A stretch of DNA of 64,000 nt from Microbacteriaceae bacterium. GTDB lineage: Bacteria; Actinomycetota; Actinomycetes; Actinomycetales; Microbacteriaceae. Position numbers and translations under genes: made by a program. The stretch is taken from contig RDDZ01000014.1 in NCBI GenBank assembly GCA_003852775.1, forward strand, positions 1-64,000, given 5' to 3'. The notes under the pieces are model-generated. The model was not told the DNA's origin and ran no database searches. It was given only the letters and a program-made list of their open reading frames with translations. Of the stretch, positions 19,235 to 28,097 are shown one piece after another; within the stretch, counting starts at the first letter, position 1; every line of letters starts with the position of its first letter.

Positions 19235-20151
19235 GGCCGCGGCGCGCGCTTCGCCCAGGCGGTCGCGACATCCGCCGCGACACGCACGTTGTTGCGCGCG
19301 AGGTCGAGGTTGACCTCGAGGCTCTTGCCGCCCGACTCCTCGACGATGAACCCGAGCAGGAACGGCGTGACGGCCTTGCCGCGCACGCCGGCCTCCTCCG
19401 CGGCGGCGAACGCGGTCGCGAGCACGCGGTCGTGCTCGGCCGGGTCCCACTGCTGCTCGAGGGGGATGGGGTTGGCGAGCACGATGCCGCTTCTCGACCC
19501 GAACGCGTCGCGGGCCGCCATGACGGCCGCCACCTCATCCGCGGAGTCGACCTTCCAGTCGAGCTCGTAGCCCGACTCGCGCAGCCAGAACGCGGGGAAC
19601 GCGGTCGTGCCGTAGCCGATGACGGGCACGGAGAGCGTCTCGAGGCGCTCGAGGGTGCCGGGGATGTCGAGCACGCTCTTGACGCCCGCCGACACGACCG
19701 TGACGGGCGAGCTCGCGAGCGTCGTGAGGTCGGCCGACTCGTCGAAGGTCTCGGATGCGCCGCGGTGCACGCCGCCCAGGCCGCCGGTCGCGAAGACGCG
19801 CACCCCGGCGAGGCCCGCGAGGTAGGCCGTCGCGGCGACGGTGGTGGCGCCCGAGCGGCCGAGCGCGGCGAGGATCGGGAGGTCGCGCACCGACGCCTTC
19901 GCGAGGTCCTCCTCGGCGATGCGGCGCACGCCATCCGCGTCGAGCCCGATCTGCGGCACGCCGTCGAGCACGGCGATCGTCGCAGGCGTCACGCCCTTCT
20001 CGCGCAGGAGCTCCTCGAACTCGATCGCGGCCTCGTGGTTGCGCGGGCGCGGGAGGCCGTGGCTGATGATCGTGGACTCGAGGGCGACGACGGGTCGGCC
20101 GTCGGCGAGGGCTGCTTCGACCTCGCGGGAGAGCTGGAAGGCGGTGGTCAT
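19231..20151 (-). CDS. psuG: pseudouridine-5'-phosphate glycosidase
   Basis: 'VALESTIISHGLPRPRN', 'FATGGLGGVHRGA', 'GVKSVLDIPGTLE'. Confidence 0.93.
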   Translation of the reverse strand: MTTAFQLSREVEAALADGRPVVALESTIISHGLPRPRNHEAAIEFEELLREKGVTPATIAVLDGVPQIGLDADGVRRIAEEDLAKASVRDLPILAALGRSGATTVAATAYLAGLAGVRVFATGGLGGVHRGASETFDESADLTTLASSPVTVVSAGVKSVLDIPGTLERLETLSVPVIGYGTTAFPAFWLRESGYELDWKVDSADEVAAVMAARDAFGSRSGIVLANPIPLEQQWDPAEHDRVLATAFAAAEEAGVRGKAVTPFLLGFIVEESGGKSLEVNLDLARNNVRVAADVATAWAKRAPRP

Positions 20152-21854
20152 CCCTCCACGCTAGTGGGCACCGCGGGCACCACCTTGCCGGGGTTGAAGT
20201 TGTCGCCCGGGTCGACCGCCCCGAAGAGGCCGCGCATGACCGCGACGCCCTCGGGCGAGATGTCCTGCTCGATCCACGGCGAGTGCTCGACGCCCACGCC
20301 GTGGTGGTGCGAGATGGTGCCGCCGTGGTCGACGAACGCCTGCTGGATGGCGCTCTTCACGACGTCGTACTCGCCGAGCGGGTCGTCGCCGAAGACGAAC
20401 GCGAAGGTGAAGTAGAGGCACGCACCCGAGTGGTACGAGTGCGAGAGATGGCACATGATCCACCCCTTCGTGCCGATCTCGTCGTACGCGCGCTCGGCCG
20501 CGGCGACGACGCCGTTGTAGAGCGGCAGCAGCTTCGACCACGGGGCCGCCGTCTCCGACACGTCGCCCGCCGCCCCCCGGTCGAGCAGGAAATCGCGCAG
20601 GTAGGGGGTGTCGAACTTCTTCTGGTCGTAGAGCACGCCGGGGCCCGTGCCGACGCCCATGCCGCCGTGCGCCTTCACGATGCGGCCCACGAGCTTCTTC
20701 TGCCGCGCGACGTGCTCGCGCGAGCCCTCGAAGCCGATGAACGAGAGGCAGATCTCGTCGAGCTTCCAGCCCTTCGAGCGCATGAGCGAGGGCAGCACCT
20801 TCTCCGCGAGGAGCGCATCCACGCCGTGGCGCTCCTTGCTCGTCGCCATCGAGAAGCCGGTCTCGCGGGAGTCGGAGACGCGCGTGATGATGGGGGTCGC
20901 ATCCGATTCGGAGATCGCCTGCATCGCCTTCAGGCCCGCCTCCCAGTTCGGGAAGAAGTAGGCCTGGATCTCGCGCTGCTCGGGCACGCGGTGCACCTGC
21001 GCCGTGATCTCGGTGATGACGCCGAGGCGCCCCTCCGAGCCGACGATCATCTCGCGCACGCTCGGCCCCGTCGACGCGGACGGGATGGCCGGGATCACGA
21101 GCACGCCGTCGCGCCCGTCGCGCGAGGGCCGCACGACGCGCACCCCGCGCACGATCTGCGCGATGTCGCCGTACTTGTCGGACTGCATGCCCGAGGAGCG
21201 GGTGGCCGCCCAGCCGCCGATCGTCGAGTGCGTGAAGCTGTCGGGGAAGTGGCCGATCGTCCAGCCCTGCGCGGCGAGCTGCGCCTCGAGGTGCGGGCCG
21301 AGCGCGCCGGCCTCGATGCGCGCGAGCCCCGAGTCGGCGTCGATCTCGAGCACGCGGTTCATGCGGCCCATGTCGAGCGACACGACCGTGCGGCTCTCGC
21401 CCGGGATCGGTTCGAGGCTGCCCGCGATGTTGCTGCCGCCGCCGAACGGGATGAGCACCGCGTTCTCGGCGACCGCCGCGTCGACGACCCGCTGCACCTC
21501 GGCCTCGTCGGCCGGGTACACGACGACGTCGACCGCGCGCTTGATGCGGTTGGACCGGATGCGCACGAGGTCGCGCAGGCTCTTGCCGTAGGTGTGCACG
21601 ACGCGCTCCATGGCATCCGTCGTCACGTGGTCCTCCCCGACGATGCCCGCGAGCGCCGCGGTGAACTCGGGCCGCACGGCCGGCTCGGCGACGTCGATGT
21701 CGTCGAAGGCGGGGGGTTCCGCCTTCTGCGCCGTCGAGAGGTCGAGGCCGACCGCCTGGAGCACGAACGGCGCGAAGCCGGGCTTATCCTCGTGGTGGAA
21801 CCCGACGCCCTCGACGCCCCAGCCCCACCACTTCATGTGCTCGACTGCGGTCAC
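20148..21854 (-). CDS. FAD-binding oxidase, alkyldihydroxyacetonephosphate synthase (AGPS)-like
   Basis: N-terminal 'MKWWGWG', FAD motif 'AVLIPFGGGSNIAGSL', C-terminal 'HGGTISHHHGVG' His triad typical of AGPS. Confidence 0.85.
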   Translation of the reverse strand: MTAVEHMKWWGWGVEGVGFHHEDKPGFAPFVLQAVGLDLSTAQKAEPPAFDDIDVAEPAVRPEFTAALAGIVGEDHVTTDAMERVVHTYGKSLRDLVRIRSNRIKRAVDVVVYPADEAEVQRVVDAAVAENAVLIPFGGGSNIAGSLEPIPGESRTVVSLDMGRMNRVLEIDADSGLARIEAGALGPHLEAQLAAQGWTIGHFPDSFTHSTIGGWAATRSSGMQSDKYGDIAQIVRGVRVVRPSRDGRDGVLVIPAIPSASTGPSVREMIVGSEGRLGVITEITAQVHRVPEQREIQAYFFPNWEAGLKAMQAISESDATPIITRVSDSRETGFSMATSKERHGVDALLAEKVLPSLMRSKGWKLDEICLSFIGFEGSREHVARQKKLVGRIVKAHGGMGVGTGPGVLYDQKKFDTPYLRDFLLDRGAAGDVSETAAPWSKLLPLYNGVVAAAERAYDEIGTKGWIMCHLSHSYHSGACLYFTFAFVFGDDPLGEYDVVKSAIQQAFVDHGGTISHHHGVGVEHSPWIEQDISPEGVAVMRGLFGAVDPGDNFNPGKVVPAVPTSVEG

Positions 21855-22603
21855 TGTCTCTCTCCTTCGGGCGACGGATGCGAGTCGGGCTCAGGCCGCG
21901 ACGCGCTCAGGATACGGGGTGCGTACGCGTCGTGCAGCCGTGCGATGCGGTCTCGGATGCGCGCCGTGAAGGCCACCGCGGACTCCCCCGGCTCGGGGCG
22001 CATGGGCTCGCTGAACACGACGCCGACGGGCAGTCGGCCGGGCTTGGGCCAGCTGCTGCCCCGCGGATGCGCGATGCCGGCGCCGACGAGGGCGACGGGG
22101 ACGACGGGGACGTCCGCGGCGATCGCGAGGGCTGCTGCACCCTGCTTGAAGTGGCCCATCTCGCCCGTCTTGGAGCGCGTGCCCTCGGGGAAGACGAGCA
22201 GCGGGACGCCGCGGTCGAGCAGCGTCTTCGCCGAGACGCTCTTGGGGTTCACGCCGTTGCGGTCGACGGGGAACGCGTTGAAGAAGAGCGCCGTGAGGAC
22301 ACGGCGCCACCATACGTGGAAGAAGTAGTCGGCCGCGGCGCCCGCGGCGAGGTAGCGCGCGAGACGCCGCGGCAGGGCTCCGAGGATGAGGGGCGCGTCG
22401 AGGTGGCTCGAGTGGTTGGCCACCACGACGAAGGCCGTCGGCAGGTCGCGCAGCCGTCGACGCCCGACGACGGCGACCCGCACGACCGACCAGGTCACCG
22501 GTTTGAGGATCCCGCGCTGCGCCACGAAGCGCGCCGCGGCGAGGGTCCTCGAGGTGAACCTGTCGCGCCGCGCGGCCGGGGGGTCCGCGGTGCTCGACAC
22601 CAT
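21851..22603 (-). CDS. lysophospholipid acyltransferase (PlsC family)
   Basis: 'VVANHSSHLDAPLI' HX4D and 'LLVFPEGTRSKTG' motifs. Confidence 0.92.
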   Translation of the reverse strand: MVSSTADPPAARRDRFTSRTLAAARFVAQRGILKPVTWSVVRVAVVGRRRLRDLPTAFVVVANHSSHLDAPLILGALPRRLARYLAAGAAADYFFHVWWRRVLTALFFNAFPVDRNGVNPKSVSAKTLLDRGVPLLVFPEGTRSKTGEMGHFKQGAAALAIAADVPVVPVALVGAGIAHPRGSSWPKPGRLPVGVVFSEPMRPEPGESAVAFTARIRDRIARLHDAYAPRILSASRPEPDSHPSPEGERQ

Positions 22604-22642
22604 GGGGACAGGGTAGACCGCGAGGATTCCCCAGGTGCGATG

Positions 22643-23416
22643 TCAGTGCGTCGAGTGGCGGGTCCCCGAGAGCTTGCGCGACACCCAGCGCACGGTGCGC
22701 ATCGGCAGGTGCCGCAGCAGCCAGGTGAGGAAGCGGTAGCGCAGGGTCGGGAGCGAGATCGCGCGACCCTTCTCGGCATCCTTGAGGCACGTCGCCACGA
22801 GGTCGTCGGCGTTCAGCCAGAGCCACGACGGGATCGCCGACTTGCGGATCTCGGCGCGGTCGTGGAACTCGGTGTGCACCCAGCCGGGCAGGAGCGCCGT
22901 GACGGTGACGCCCGTGCCGTGCAGGGCGTTCGAGAGGCTCTCGCTGTAGACGCGCATCCACGCCTTGATGGCCGCGTAGAGGCCCATCGAGGTGTAGCCG
23001 GCGACGCTCGCGACGTTGATGATCGTGCCGTGGCCGCGCTCGCGCATCCCCGGGACGGCGGCCGCCGAGAGCACGAGCGGCGCCTGCATCATCACCTGGA
23101 TGGCGTCAGCCGCCTCGTCGAGGTCGGGGTCGGAGAGCTTCGTCTTCATGCCGTAGCCGGCGTTGTTGACGAGCAGCTCGATCGGATGCGCGGCATCCGC
23201 GAGCCGGTCGGCCACGCGCCGCACGTCGTCGGGCTTCCCGAGGTCGGCGACGAGCACCTCGACCTCGCGGCCCGACGCGCGCAGCTCGGCGGCCATCTCC
23301 GCGAGGCGCGGGGCGGTGCGGGCCACGAGCACGAGGTCGTAGCCGCGGGCCGCGAGGGCGCGGGCGAACGCGGCGCCGATGCCGGCGGTACCGCCGGTGA
23401 CGAGAGCGTGTGGCAT
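22643..23416 (-). CDS. SDR family NAD(P)-dependent oxidoreductase
   Basis: 'VTGGTAGIGAAFA', 'NNAGYG', 'YAAIKAW'. Confidence 0.92.
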   Translation of the reverse strand: MPHALVTGGTAGIGAAFARALAARGYDLVLVARTAPRLAEMAAELRASGREVEVLVADLGKPDDVRRVADRLADAAHPIELLVNNAGYGMKTKLSDPDLDEAADAIQVMMQAPLVLSAAAVPGMRERGHGTIINVASVAGYTSMGLYAAIKAWMRVYSESLSNALHGTGVTVTALLPGWVHTEFHDRAEIRKSAIPSWLWLNADDLVATCLKDAEKGRAISLPTLRYRFLTWLLRHLPMRTVRWVSRKLSGTRHSTH

Positions 23417-23488
23417 GGGCCTTACGATACGGTCATCGAGGCGTCCTCACCGTGCGAGGGCGCCCGTCAGGAAGGTCCCCCCGCCACC

Positions 23489-24295
23489 ATGACCAACCGA
23501 GCCTCCGCGACCACGGAGTCCTTCGACGTGCGCGAGTACGCTCGCACGGCGCAGGGCAGCCACCGCGGCGAGATCGACGTCGAGACCCTCGCGCGCACGG
23601 GCCTGCCGTGCGACGCCGTGCGCCTCATCCGCGTGCTGCGCGACCTCGAGCGCGGCACCCTCGACCGGATGCGCAACCTCCTCGTGACGGCGACCCACAA
23701 GGATGCGCGGGTCACCGCGTTCCTGGCGACGTGGGCGTTCGAGAAGTACTGGATCGCCGACGCGCTCGACGCCGTGCTCGACGCGGTGGGCGCCGACACC
23801 TCGCCGCTCACGGGGCCGCCGCGCCGCACGGCCGCCGAGCGCGCCGAGCGCCGGGGGCCCATCCGCCGCGCCCTCGCCGGCAACATCGCGGGCGCGGACA
23901 TCGTGGCCGGCCACATGACGACGGGGCTCGTCGACGAGCTCATCACCCAGGCCGCCTACCGCCGCCTCGGCGACGCGGCCGCCGTGCTGTCGTCGCTCGT
24001 GTCGACCCTCGTCGCGGTGAAGGACCGCCACATCGCCTTCCTCGCCGAGGAAGCCGAGCACAAGCTCGCCGCCTCGGCCCGCGCCGTCCGCCTCGCCCGC
24101 AAGGAGATCGCGCGCGCCGCGTGGCCGATCGGCGCCGCGAGCATCCCCGCCGCCGACCGCTCCTTCTTCGAGGCGTACGTGTTCGGGCAGCCGGGCGGGC
24201 GGGCGGCGGCCGCGCGGATCGGCGAAGGGCTCGCGGCGCTCCCCGGCATGGGCGCCGCATCCGGGGCCACCGTCGTCGCGAGGCTCGTGCCGTGA
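23489..24295 (+). CDS. ferritin-like fold protein with degenerate diiron site (paralogue of 26638-27432)
   Basis: Manual alignment with the downstream ferritin-like protein: 'FLATWAFEKYWIADALDAVL' vs 'FMTMWNREEFWHGEALAAVL'. Confidence 0.75.
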   Translation: MTNRASATTESFDVREYARTAQGSHRGEIDVETLARTGLPCDAVRLIRVLRDLERGTLDRMRNLLVTATHKDARVTAFLATWAFEKYWIADALDAVLDAVGADTSPLTGPPRRTAAERAERRGPIRRALAGNIAGADIVAGHMTTGLVDELITQAAYRRLGDAAAVLSSLVSTLVAVKDRHIAFLAEEAEHKLAASARAVRLARKEIARAAWPIGAASIPAADRSFFEAYVFGQPGGRAAAARIGEGLAALPGMGAASGATVVARLVP

Positions 24296-26619
24296 CGCCG
24301 AAGCGCGCGAAGACGGAGCTCGGCGAGGCCCACGTCTTCCTCACCGGGGCGACGGGCTTCGTGGGCCAGGCCGTGCTCGAGCGCCTGCTGTCGAGCCACC
24401 CCGGCACGACGATCTCGCTGCTCGTGCGCACGAAGGGCTCGGCGGGCGGCGACGACCGCCTGCGCAACCTGCTGCGCAAGCCCGTGTTCCGTGCGTGGCG
24501 CGAGCAGGTCGGCGAGGAGGGCGTCGAGGCGGCCGCGTGCGACCGCATCCGGATCGTCGAGGGCGGCCTCGGCTCGGTGCCGCCGCTGCCCGACGACATC
24601 GACGTCGTCATCCACTCCGCGTCGACGGTGTCGTTCGACCCTCCCATCGACCAGGCGTTCGACACCAACGTCGGCGGGGCGGTGCGGCTCTACGAGGCGC
24701 TGCGCGCGTCCGGCTCCACGCCGCACGTCGTGCACGTGTCGACGTGCTACGTGGGCGGCCTGCGCAAGGGCGTCGTACCGGAGGCGCGCCTCGAGCACGC
24801 GATCGACTGGCGCGCCGAGTACGCGGCCGCGACGTCGGCCCGCGAGCGCATCGAGCTGCTCTCGCGCCACCCGGACAAGCTGCGCGAGTTCATGGACCGC
24901 GCCCGCGCCGAGCACGGCAAGGAGGGGCCGCAGGCGGTCGCCCGCGCGAGCGAGGAGGCGCGCATCGAGTGGGTCACGAAGGCGCTCGTCGACGCCGGCC
25001 GCACGCGCGCCGAGTCGCTCGGCTGGACCGACGTCTACACGCTCACGAAGGCGTTCGCCGAGCGGGCCGCCGAGGAGCTCTGGGCGGGCACAGGCGGCAG
25101 CCTCTCGGTCGTGCGACCGGCGATCATCGAGTCGGCGCTGCGGCATCCGTTCCCGGGCTGGATCGACGGGTTCAAGGTCGCCGACCCGCTCATCCTCGCC
25201 TACGGGCGCGGGCTGCTACCCGAGTTCCCGGGGCTTCCCGACAGCGTGCTCGACCTCATCCCGGTCGACTACGTCGTCAACGCGATCCTCGCGGCGGCCG
25301 CGAATCCGCCGAAGACTGAGCCCGAGTACTTCCACGTGAGCTCGGGCGCCTCGAACCCGCTGCCGTTCCACCGGATGTTCGAGAACGTGCACGCGTACTT
25401 CACGGCGAACCCGATGCCGTCGCCCCGCGGCGGCGAGGTGCGCGTGCCGACGTGGCGCTTCCCGGGAGGCCGCAAGGTCGAGCGGGCGCTCGCACGATCG
25501 CGCACCCGCCTCGAGCGCCGCGAGCGCTGGCTGAACCGGATGCCGTCGACCGCCCGCACGCGCGCCCGGCTCGCCGAGCTCGGCACGAAGCGCAGCGACC
25601 TCGAGACCCTCGAGAACTTCGCCGAGCTCTACCGGGCCTACGTGCAGACCGAGATCATCTTCGACGACGCCAACACGCGGGCCCTGCACGCGGCGATCCC
25701 GACGAGGCTCCAGACCGACCGCGGCTTCGACCTCGCCGCGATCGACTGGGAGGACTACCTGCAGAAGGTGCACTTCCCGGCGATCACGACGCTCACGCGC
25801 GCCTTCGCGCGGCGCCCCGAGGGTTCGCCCTCACCCGAGGGCCGTCCCGCCGTCGAACTGCCCGAGCGCACGGATGTCGTGGCCGTCTTCGACCTCGAGG
25901 GCACGGTCGTCGACACGAACCTCGTGAAGCAGTACCTGTGGGTGCGCTCGTCGGGGTGGGGCTGGGCGGCGTGGCCGGCATCCGTCGTGGCGATCCTCAC
26001 GCGGCTGCCCGCCTACCTGCGGGCCGAGCGGCGCGACCGCGGGGAGTTCATCCGCACGTTCCTCCGCCGCTACGAGGGGATGAGCCAGGCGCGCCTCGAG
26101 CGAACCGTCGACGGAGGTTACGCCGACACGATGCTCGGCCGCACCGCCACCGCCGCGCTCGAGCGGGCCGCCGCCCACCGCGCCGCGGGCCACCGGACCG
26201 TGCTCGTCACCGGGTCGATCGGCACGCTCGCCGAACCCGTCGCCGCCGCGTTCGACGAGGTCGTCGCGGGCGCCATGCACGTGCGCGACGGTCAGCTCAC
26301 GGGCTACCTCGCGCGCCCGCCGCTCGTCGACGAGGCTCGCGCCAACTGGCTGCGGCAGTACGCCGAGCGCGGCGGCTACGACCTCTCCGCCTCCTACGGG
26401 TACGGCGACAGCCACGCCGACCTCGTGTGGCTCGAACTGCTCGGCCACCCCCACGCCGTCAACCCCGACCACCGGCTCGCCCGCGAGGCGGGGCGTCGGC
26501 GGTGGCGGATCGAGACCTGGAAGCCTGGCTCGCGCGCCGCGAACCGTGCTTTGATGGCGTCGAGCACCGCCGCATCCGCATCCGCCCCCGCGCACGAGGA
26601 AGGAGCGGACGGGGGCTGA
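24292..26619 (+). CDS. bifunctional fatty acyl-CoA reductase (NAD-binding_4) - HAD-IB hydrolase fusion
   Basis: 'VFLTGATGFVGQAVLERLL', 'HVSTCYVGG', 'YTLTKAFAE' FAR motifs; C-terminal 'AVFDLEGTVVDTNLVKQYL' and 'GYGDSHADLVWLELLG' HAD motifs. Confidence 0.88.
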   Translation: MTPKRAKTELGEAHVFLTGATGFVGQAVLERLLSSHPGTTISLLVRTKGSAGGDDRLRNLLRKPVFRAWREQVGEEGVEAAACDRIRIVEGGLGSVPPLPDDIDVVIHSASTVSFDPPIDQAFDTNVGGAVRLYEALRASGSTPHVVHVSTCYVGGLRKGVVPEARLEHAIDWRAEYAAATSARERIELLSRHPDKLREFMDRARAEHGKEGPQAVARASEEARIEWVTKALVDAGRTRAESLGWTDVYTLTKAFAERAAEELWAGTGGSLSVVRPAIIESALRHPFPGWIDGFKVADPLILAYGRGLLPEFPGLPDSVLDLIPVDYVVNAILAAAANPPKTEPEYFHVSSGASNPLPFHRMFENVHAYFTANPMPSPRGGEVRVPTWRFPGGRKVERALARSRTRLERRERWLNRMPSTARTRARLAELGTKRSDLETLENFAELYRAYVQTEIIFDDANTRALHAAIPTRLQTDRGFDLAAIDWEDYLQKVHFPAITTLTRAFARRPEGSPSPEGRPAVELPERTDVVAVFDLEGTVVDTNLVKQYLWVRSSGWGWAAWPASVVAILTRLPAYLRAERRDRGEFIRTFLRRYEGMSQARLERTVDGGYADTMLGRTATAALERAAAHRAAGHRTVLVTGSIGTLAEPVAAAFDEVVAGAMHVRDGQLTGYLARPPLVDEARANWLRQYAERGGYDLSASYGYGDSHADLVWLELLGHPHAVNPDHRLAREAGRRRWRIETWKPGSRAANRALMASSTAASASAPAHEEGADGG

Positions 26620-26637
26620 GCCTCCGCCCGGACAGCC

Positions 26638-27432
26638 ATGGCCTTCGACATCGACAGGTACACGACGAACTCCGCCGCCGTCGCGTGGGCCGACCTCGAC
26701 TTCGACGTCTTCGACGAGCACCCGCTGCCCGAGAGCACGCTGCGCACCCTGCGCTACATGTGCGACATCGAGTACCACACGACCTGCTACCTGCGGGACC
26801 TGCTCACGACCCCCTCGCACAACGAACCCGAGGTGGGCGCGTTCATGACGATGTGGAACCGCGAGGAGTTCTGGCACGGCGAGGCGCTCGCGGCCGTGCT
26901 CGCGAAGCACGGCGTCACCGTCGACTACGACGTGCTCAAGGCCACCCGCCTCAAGCTCGGCTGGAAAGACCGCCTCGACCCCGTCAAGCAGTCGATCATG
27001 GGCGGGCTCGTCGGGAACGACTTCGTCGCCGTGCACATGGCGTGGGGAGCCGCGAACGAGTGGTCGGCGAACGCCGCCTACCTGCGCATGGCCGAGCTCG
27101 AGGGCAACCCCGTGCTCGCCGAGCTGCTCAAGCGGATCGCGAAGCAGGAGACCCGGCACGTCGCCTTCTACGCGTCGCAGGCCCGCGACCGGCTGAAGGA
27201 CTCGAAGAAGGCGCAGAAGCTCGCGCGCTTCGCCCTCTCGCGCTTCTGGGGACCGGTCGGCTCCGGTGTCCAGGACGAGGCAGAGGTGACCCACGTCATG
27301 AACCACCTCTTCGCCGGTCCCGAGGGCCGCAAGCTCGTGCGCGACGTCGACTCGCACATCGCGAAGCTGCCCGGCCTCGCCGGCCTCACGATCGTCGAGG
27401 ACTCGCTCGAGAAGCGGGGCATCGCGGCGTGA
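26638..27432 (+). CDS. ferritin-like diiron protein
   Basis: E (DIEYHT), ExxH (EFWH), E (ANEWS), ExxH (ETRH) carboxylate-His ligand pattern. Confidence 0.8.
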   Translation: MAFDIDRYTTNSAAVAWADLDFDVFDEHPLPESTLRTLRYMCDIEYHTTCYLRDLLTTPSHNEPEVGAFMTMWNREEFWHGEALAAVLAKHGVTVDYDVLKATRLKLGWKDRLDPVKQSIMGGLVGNDFVAVHMAWGAANEWSANAAYLRMAELEGNPVLAELLKRIAKQETRHVAFYASQARDRLKDSKKAQKLARFALSRFWGPVGSGVQDEAEVTHVMNHLFAGPEGRKLVRDVDSHIAKLPGLAGLTIVEDSLEKRGIAA

Positions 27433-28097
27433 GCGTCCGTGTGCCCGGCGCGGCGGCATCCGCCTCGCTCCGATCCCCGCTGCTCTGGCTCGACGTCGCC
27501 CTCTACCTGCTGCTGCCGCTCGTCGGCCTGCTGTGGTGGGGGTGGGACTGGCGGCCCGTCGTGCTGCTCTACTGGCTCGAGAACGTGACGATCGGCGGCG
27601 TCACCTTCATCGCGCTGCGGCGCCGCGCCGCGGCGGGCGGCGAGGGGCCGGGCGGCTTCCCGTCCTCGTTCTTCCTCATGCACTACGGCATCTTCACGTT
27701 CGTGCACGGCGTGTTCGTGATCGTGCTGATCCTGCTCGCCCCCGTCATCACGGGCTCCGAGTCCGCACCGTTCGACGCGCTCTGGCTCGTGCTCGCGTGG
27801 CTCGTCGCGACGGGGCTCGCCTGGTACTCCGCGTCGCGGTCCGATCCGCCGCCGCGCGCCGGGGTGGGACGCGCCTACGGACGCGTGATCGTGCTGCACG
27901 TCGTCGTGCTCGGCGCCGTGTGGCTCATCGAGGCGCTCGGCCTCCCCGCCATCGTCGCGATCGTGCTCGTCGTGCTGCACGCGATCGTCGACATCGTGGC
28001 ACTCGTGCTCGGATCCCTCGTCGGCGGCGGGCGCTACCGGTGGGTACCGACCGGCACGACGTCCTGGCGGCTCGAGCGCGTGCCCGACGAGGGCTGA
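27429..28097 (+). CDS. DUF6498-like polytopic membrane protein
   Basis: 'VVLLYWLENVTIGGVTFI'; about 5-6 TM; GTG start overlaps upstream TGA. Confidence 0.7.
   Translation: MSVRVPGAAASASLRSPLLWLDVALYLLLPLVGLLWWGWDWRPVVLLYWLENVTIGGVTFIALRRRAAAGGEGPGGFPSSFFLMHYGIFTFVHGVFVIVLILLAPVITGSESAPFDALWLVLAWLVATGLAWYSASRSDPPPRAGVGRAYGRVIVLHVVVLGAVWLIEALGLPAIVAIVLVVLHAIVDIVALVLGSLVGGGRYRWVPTGTTSWRLERVPDEG

Follow-up and report, generated by a model that had tools for sequence, protein, structure and literature searches.

A divergent gene cluster was analyzed within a 64,000-nucleotide stretch of DNA (the window), which forms part of contig C38 of a 2.79 Mb Microbacteriaceae genome with Protaetiibacter and Homoserinibacter as its closest genera. 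At positions 20148-27432, a minus-strand arm encoding an alkylglycerone-phosphate synthase (AGPS)-type enzyme, a PlsC-type acyltransferase and a short-chain dehydrogenase/reductase (SDR) diverges from a plus-strand arm encoding a ferritin-like protein (FER1), a fusion of a fatty acyl-CoA reductase with a HAD-type domain (FAR-HAD) and a second ferritin-like protein (FER2). The best overall explanation of this cluster, held with moderate confidence, is the aerobic synthesis of glycerol ether lipids by the logic of animal peroxisomes, in which the FER pair would desaturate the alkyl ether to a vinyl ether. Its two parts differ in strength: the sequences make an actinobacterial aerobic pathway for alkyl-ether lipids quite probable, and the FER pair is put forward tentatively as a non-CarF alkenyl-ether desaturase, because standalone FER pairs and single FER2 relatives occur without AGPS.

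The AGPS-type flavin adenine dinucleotide enzyme (20148..21854, minus strand, 568 aa) carries PF01565 and PF02913 (FAD_binding_4 and FAD-oxidase_C). Its best PDB matches were Dictyostelium ADPS (2uuu, E 5.6e-114) and mammalian AGPS (4bby, E 1.4e-82), and the top match outside AGPS was a D-lactate dehydrogenase (E 3.5e-23). Residues T211, R325, R420, Y481 and H516-518 align with the catalytic residues T309, R419, R515, Y578 and H615-617 of mammalian AGPS. All seven were kept in every AGPS row shown, Dictyostelium and guinea pig included, and were not kept as a set in the oxidase rows. In a tree, glycolate-oxidase-like rows were set apart, with 99% Shimodaira-Hasegawa-like approximate likelihood ratio test (SH-aLRT) support, from a group comprising the AGPS of the cluster, both eukaryotic AGPS sequences and further AGPS-like proteins of actinobacteria; one long-branched oxidase row (L120) was misplaced. 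By sequence, the window protein groups with eukaryotic AGPS and apart from glycolate oxidases; the grouping with glycolate or lactate oxidases that an earlier note on this DNA had named as refuting its proposal was not seen, and a glycolate oxidase identity was rejected on the PDB scores, the catalytic residues and the tree. The MKWWGWG and SHHHGVG motifs described in that note were both found and are largely conserved across 60 homologues. AGPS-like proteins of 34-41% identity with the same residues were present in 84 of 397 Actinomycetota genomes. At two loci of group f42 (L204 and L205), an AGPS 57-60% identical to that of the window adjoins a PlsC-like gene; FER2 was not found in these genomes, and the arrangement is possibly a saturated-ether-only version.

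The FAR-HAD fusion (24292..26619, plus strand) matched PF07993 (NAD_binding_4, Male sterility/FAR; E 9.1e-45), PF03015 (Sterile; 27.0, under its cut-off of 35.4) and PF12710 (HAD; E 2.3e-28), with the FAR at approximately aa 10-500 and the HAD-type phosphatase at approximately aa 531-714. The FAR part matched a fatty acyl-CoA reductase (PDB 7eoz, E 1.2e-48) over aa 10-499, which is its whole length. Motifs TGxTGFxG, YTxTK, FDxExT, VTG and GYGD were conserved in 67 sequences, and the window protein has YTLTK at the YxxxK site. The combination of NAD_binding_4, Sterile and YxxxK points to an alcohol-forming FAR. In the HAD domain, the first motif FDLEGT (aa 531-536) replaces the usual DxD, and FDxExT is kept in the 67 homologues. 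Given that a DxEGT first motif occurs in the active enolase-phosphatase E1, phosphatase activity of this domain is plausible.

PlsC (21851..22603, minus strand; PF01553, E 1.8e-22; PDB 5kym PlsC, E 8e-16) contains the motifs NHSSHLD and FPEGTRS, and SDR (22643..23416, minus strand; PF00106 adh_short, E 3.1e-41) contains YxxxK; both are ordinary members of their superfamilies. By analogy, the PlsC-type protein is a candidate acyltransferase for dihydroxyacetone phosphate (DHAP) or alkyl-glycerol 3-phosphate (alkyl-G3P), and the SDR, from its gene position and by analogy, is a candidate alkyl/acyl-DHAP reductase.

Conservation of the cluster was determined in two genome samples. A scan of named genomes conditioned on FER2 yielded 80 loci, mostly from Microbacteriaceae and also from Streptomyces and Phytoactinopolyspora. 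In 61 of the 80, from ~24 named genera, the six genes were found in the same order and strand within 12.5 kb, with a median SDR-FER1 distance of 106 bases. These genera include Agreia, Subtercola, Salinibacterium, Rhodoglobus, Herbiconiux, Plantibacter, Galbitalea, Streptomyces and Phytoactinopolyspora; a Subtercola metagenome-assembled genome (MAG) and two Agreia genomes carry the cluster. At two rearranged loci (L048 and L104) the AGPS-PlsC pair was relocated and still adjoined the FER genes. In an even draw of 200 Microbacteriaceae genomes, not conditioned on FER2 and with an AGPS cut-off of E<1e-100, FER2 was found in 60, AGPS in 55 and both in 53 (Fisher p about 5e-38, uncorrected for kinship). 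The two AGPS-only genomes were 85% and 77% complete, with FER1 beside AGPS in one. Seven genomes had FER2 only: six of these cases are real, and in the other (G107) the locus is cut at a contig end. Co-occurrence in relatives, which the earlier note had named as a check, is therefore well beyond chance for the six genes. In trees of either arm, the Streptomyces sequences fall within those of Microbacteriaceae, and the block has therefore moved as a unit. From these sequences, the cluster is real, conserved and horizontally mobile. Together with the AGPS residues and phylogeny and an alcohol-forming type of FAR, this conserved, horizontally moving block supports the ether-lipid reading of the earlier note.

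FER1 (23489..24295, plus strand) and FER2 (26638..27432, plus strand) are paralogues with 28% identity, and Pfam matches to the ferritin-like proteins were weak (Rubrerythrin/FA_desaturase_2). FER2 ligands E45, E77, H80, E141, E171 and H174 were invariant in 81 sequences, and in an AlphaFold2 model each set of the E/ExxH/E/ExxH diiron ligands lies on its own long helix of a four-helix bundle (predicted local distance difference test score of 89.4 for FER2 and 93.7 for FER1). FER1, which has no Pfam match when scanned alone, carries K86, I89 and K178 at three ligand positions, a substitution conserved among its homologues, and is thus without an intact metal site. Two diiron proteins had been expected from the earlier note; FER2 keeps all six ligands, but the loss of ligands in FER1 leaves room for a single normal diiron enzyme in the pair. 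Each of the 60 genomes in the 200-genome family sample that has a strong FER2 has FER1 as well, and we infer a heteromer in which FER2 would be active and FER1 metal-free. Foldseek placed M. tuberculosis DesA2 (1za0) first for FER2, followed by plant acyl-ACP desaturases, and a weak PF03405 match was obtained for 52 of the 78 FER proteins scanned. Ligands, fold and this weak match make FER2 a candidate lipid or alkyl-ether desaturase. The suggestion in the earlier note that these proteins act on fatty aldehydes as aldehyde-deformylating oxygenases (ADO), by an alkane route, was rejected, as no ADO Pfam family matched at E 0.1 and the ADO-like structure 6d9f was only rank 43 in Foldseek.

Known plasmalogen enzymes were searched for in the same lineages. 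PF10520 (CarF/PEDS1) was found in none of the 200 Microbacteriaceae genomes and none of the 24 named cluster genomes, and the same search was positive in 12 of 297 Actinomycetota. The DUF2229 family PF09989 served as the marker of the anaerobic plasmalogen reductases of the 2-hydroxyacyl-CoA dehydratase type (PlsA/PlsR). With positive controls, it was absent from the source genome and from the 24 cluster genomes, among them those of Agreia and Subtercola; of 80 family genomes, one had it.

Dimethyl acetals (DMA) are a plasmalogen signature. Iso-16:0 DMA (up to 17%) and anteiso-15:0 DMA (up to 11%) were present in all four Subtercola species compared, and Agreia contained up to 4% iso-15:0 DMA (PMC5945732). 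The aerobic actinobacterium Kineococcus rubinsiae contains anteiso-15:0 DMA, which the MIDI system misread as C14:0 2-OH and which its authors called surprising at first sight and indicative of plasmalogens (PMC7472656). Myxobacteria are treated as the exception among aerobes for plasmalogens, and CarF is known only from myxobacteria and Leptospira according to a review (PMC9131029). In the open literature, which omits most species descriptions, DMA in Microbacteriaceae turned up only for Subtercola and Agreia, and outside the family for Kineococcus. Frondihabitans was dropped as a DMA-negative control, as its reported C14:0 2-OH may be misread anteiso-C15:0 DMA. FER1/FER2 is a candidate for the vinyl-ether enzyme because alkyl-ether enzymes and genus-level DMA occur together without a known enzyme for this step. 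The plasmalogen idea of the earlier note has thereby become likelier, through the DMA of Subtercola and Agreia and the lack of CarF and Pls markers, but the reaction assigned to the FER pair is an inferred one.

In the proposed order of reactions, FAR would reduce branched acyl thioesters to fatty alcohols and the PlsC-type protein would acylate DHAP (or, at a later stage, alkyl-G3P). AGPS would then put the alcohol in place of the acyl group of acyl-DHAP, and SDR would reduce the resulting alkyl-DHAP to 1-O-alkyl-G3P, with the HAD domain removing phosphate from an intermediate. Finally, the FER1/FER2 heteromer, with O2 and a reductase, would desaturate the alkyl chain at C1-C2 to give the vinyl ether; FER2 regiochemistry is the most provisional element of the scheme. 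The pair would thus fill the role of CarF/PEDS1, to which it is unrelated. Slightly more tentative than the desaturase assignment itself is the proposal that FER1/FER2, as a soluble ferritin-like heteromer with one inactive subunit, represents a second, unrelated class of O2-dependent plasmalogen desaturase, which together with AGPS and FAR-HAD would form a mobile aerobic pathway in Actinomycetota that explains the DMA of Subtercola and Agreia and perhaps of other aerobic actinobacteria.

Several observations weigh against this scheme. In structure, FER2 resembles desaturases remotely (TM about 0.57), with R2lox and ribonucleotide reductase R2 close behind in Foldseek, and the PF03405 score of FER2 (19.7 bits) is under the gathering threshold of 22.7, so that FER2 may work like an acyl-ACP desaturase and was not filed as a member of that family. 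Agromyces, Leifsonia, Glaciibacter and one more genome keep adjacent FER1-FER2, and neither a cluster-type AGPS nor FAR-HAD was found in this clade. In a quick tree, these standalone pairs group as a single clade inside the FER2 sequences of cluster-bearing genomes, which rules them out as a separate family and suggests that they arose by loss of the ether arm; because of this nesting, the sequences show the FER pair to have another use or substrate where alkyl ethers are not made locally. Other actinobacterial families also contain single FER2 homologues (40-49% identical) with no adjacent AGPS. The conserved AGPS residues alone call for caution and are insufficient as proof of ether synthesis, because the widespread AGPS-like proteins that share them have at most a putative ether-lipid role, and PlsC is as similar to AGPAT enzymes as to GNPAT. 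The DMA reports concern other members of Subtercola and Agreia and therefore link to the cluster at the genus level, not through the window species or cluster-typed strains.

In an unlikely alternative, the cluster would make saturated 1-O-alkyl ethers only, FER1/FER2 would desaturate acyl or alkyl chains internally (e.g. in cold adaptation) and Subtercola DMA would come from another enzyme. The likeness of FER2 to acyl-ACP desaturases, the persistence of the FER pair without AGPS and FAR in one clade and the single FER2 relatives without adjacent AGPS all speak for it. However, at nearly all loci FAR-HAD is flanked by FER1 and FER2 within a single operon and moves with them, AGPS without FER2 almost never occurs in the family, and no other known vinyl-ether enzyme (CarF, Pls markers) was found in the 24 cluster genomes. 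The operon coupling of the FER genes to FAR would suit a still less likely role before AGPS, in which the pair oxidizes the free alcohol, aldehyde or acyl chain (by hydroxylation, aldehyde formation or chain shortening) and the product is a chain-modified ether lipid rather than a plasmalogen. R2lox-like and ADO-like folds are among the structural matches, but the low rank of ADO, the lack of an ADO Pfam match and the retention of FER1/FER2 in genomes without FAR-HAD argue against such a role.

We regard as improbable an oxidase identity of the AGPS-like protein, with wax esters, fatty alcohols or an unusual neutral lipid as the products of the cluster. FAR and an acyltransferase would also fit wax esters, and the same-residue proteins in 84 of the 397 Actinomycetota genomes have at most a putative ether-lipid role; yet the PDB scores place AGPS tens of orders of magnitude ahead of every oxidase, all seven of its residues are kept, the split from glycolate-oxidase-like proteins has 99% SH-aLRT support and the block holds no wax synthase.

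The animal peroxisomal route (FAR1, GNPAT, AGPS, alkyl-DHAP reductase and PEDS1/TMEM189) shares with the cluster its FAR, acyltransferase, AGPS and SDR classes, the AGPS active-site residues and an O2-activating metal enzyme as the candidate for the last step. Unlike that route, the cluster has all its genes in one divergon, a FAR fused to a HAD phosphatase, a short, PlsC-like acyltransferase and, as candidate desaturase, a soluble ferritin-like pair instead of a PF10520 membrane protein. Plasmalogens have been shown in the aerobe Myxococcus xanthus (MXAN_1676-1674, elbA-E, carF), in which ElbD plays the main part and AGPS a minor one and CarF forms the vinyl ether (PMC9131029). This system has in common with the cluster an AGPS (MXAN_1676), a FAR domain, a HAD gene (elbB), an acyltransferase domain and NAD-dependent reductases (PMC9131029), whereas Microbacteriaceae are without CarF and the window block is without an ElbD-like fusion. 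Anaerobic PlsA/PlsR share the product class (plasmalogen) but reduce a diacyl lipid without O2. Soluble acyl-ACP desaturases (PF03405; DesA2, castor) share with FER2 the four-helix diiron fold and E/ExxH/E/ExxH ligands; FER2 differs in having about 14-20% identity to them, below the Pfam threshold, and in standing beside an obligate metal-free paralogue, a form not known for that family.

No published account of the cluster was found in the literature searched. It is best regarded as a variant of the AGPS-type aerobic ether-lipid pathway, the new part being the candidate desaturase class. To our knowledge, DMA in aerobic actinobacteria have been described since 2000 (about 25 years) with their genes not known. 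The cluster offers a concrete candidate for the whole actinobacterial route and for a vinyl-ether enzyme unrelated to CarF/PEDS1; it is kept in many soil and cold-water actinobacteria and could explain their reported plasmalogen signatures. If the proposal is true, there were two or more origins of the O2-dependent vinyl-ether step, the AGPS phylogeny would bear on the origin of the animal pathway, and chemotaxonomists could use genomes to predict plasmalogens and could re-examine '2-hydroxy' fatty acids as possible DMA.

All seven open reading frames described in the earlier note at 20148-28097 were open on the strands given there, and their domain classes agreed with a Pfam search of the window proteins; the FAR-HAD start was corrected to 24292, where it overlaps FER1 by 4 bases. 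Genes within each arm are spaced by 4-base overlaps (as between PlsC and AGPS) or gaps of a few tens of bases, and the arms are separated by a gene-free divergent promoter region of 72 bases (23417..23488). The seventh gene, a DUF6498 membrane protein (27429..28097, plus strand; PF20108, E 3.6e-33), overlaps FER2 by 4 bases and is followed in the window by a TetR gene. Six of the seven genes are conserved as a unit, but the DUF6498 gene is a local addition; synteny ruled out both it and TetR as conserved parts, and the DUF6498 gene is absent beside the cluster in relatives.

Other arrangements were observed elsewhere. In L129 and L130 (genus g17), FER1-FER2 lies several kb from an AGPS-PlsC-SDR / FAR-HAD divergon, and the pair behaves there as its own module. 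In a Subtercola MAG (L113:7549-11968), FAR-HAD is separated from FER2 by a LarA-type (Lar_N) protein and an additional PlsC, and next after FER2 comes a diacylglycerol kinase-type gene. One actinobacterial family (f18) has PF10520 genes in 11 genomes and, within the same phylum sample, gave no AGPS match at E 1e-45. In an actinobacterial MAG, a short contig (G343 contig C68; L211:2903-6065) carries an AGPS fragment and FAR that diverge from a PF10520 gene. This contig is perhaps a contaminant, given its guanine-cytosine content of 0.62, whereas a second contig from that bin has 0.74. Its layout, which speaks for the proposed scheme, is analogous to that of the window, with CarF standing where the FER genes stand, and it is possibly a further CarF-type plasmalogen locus.

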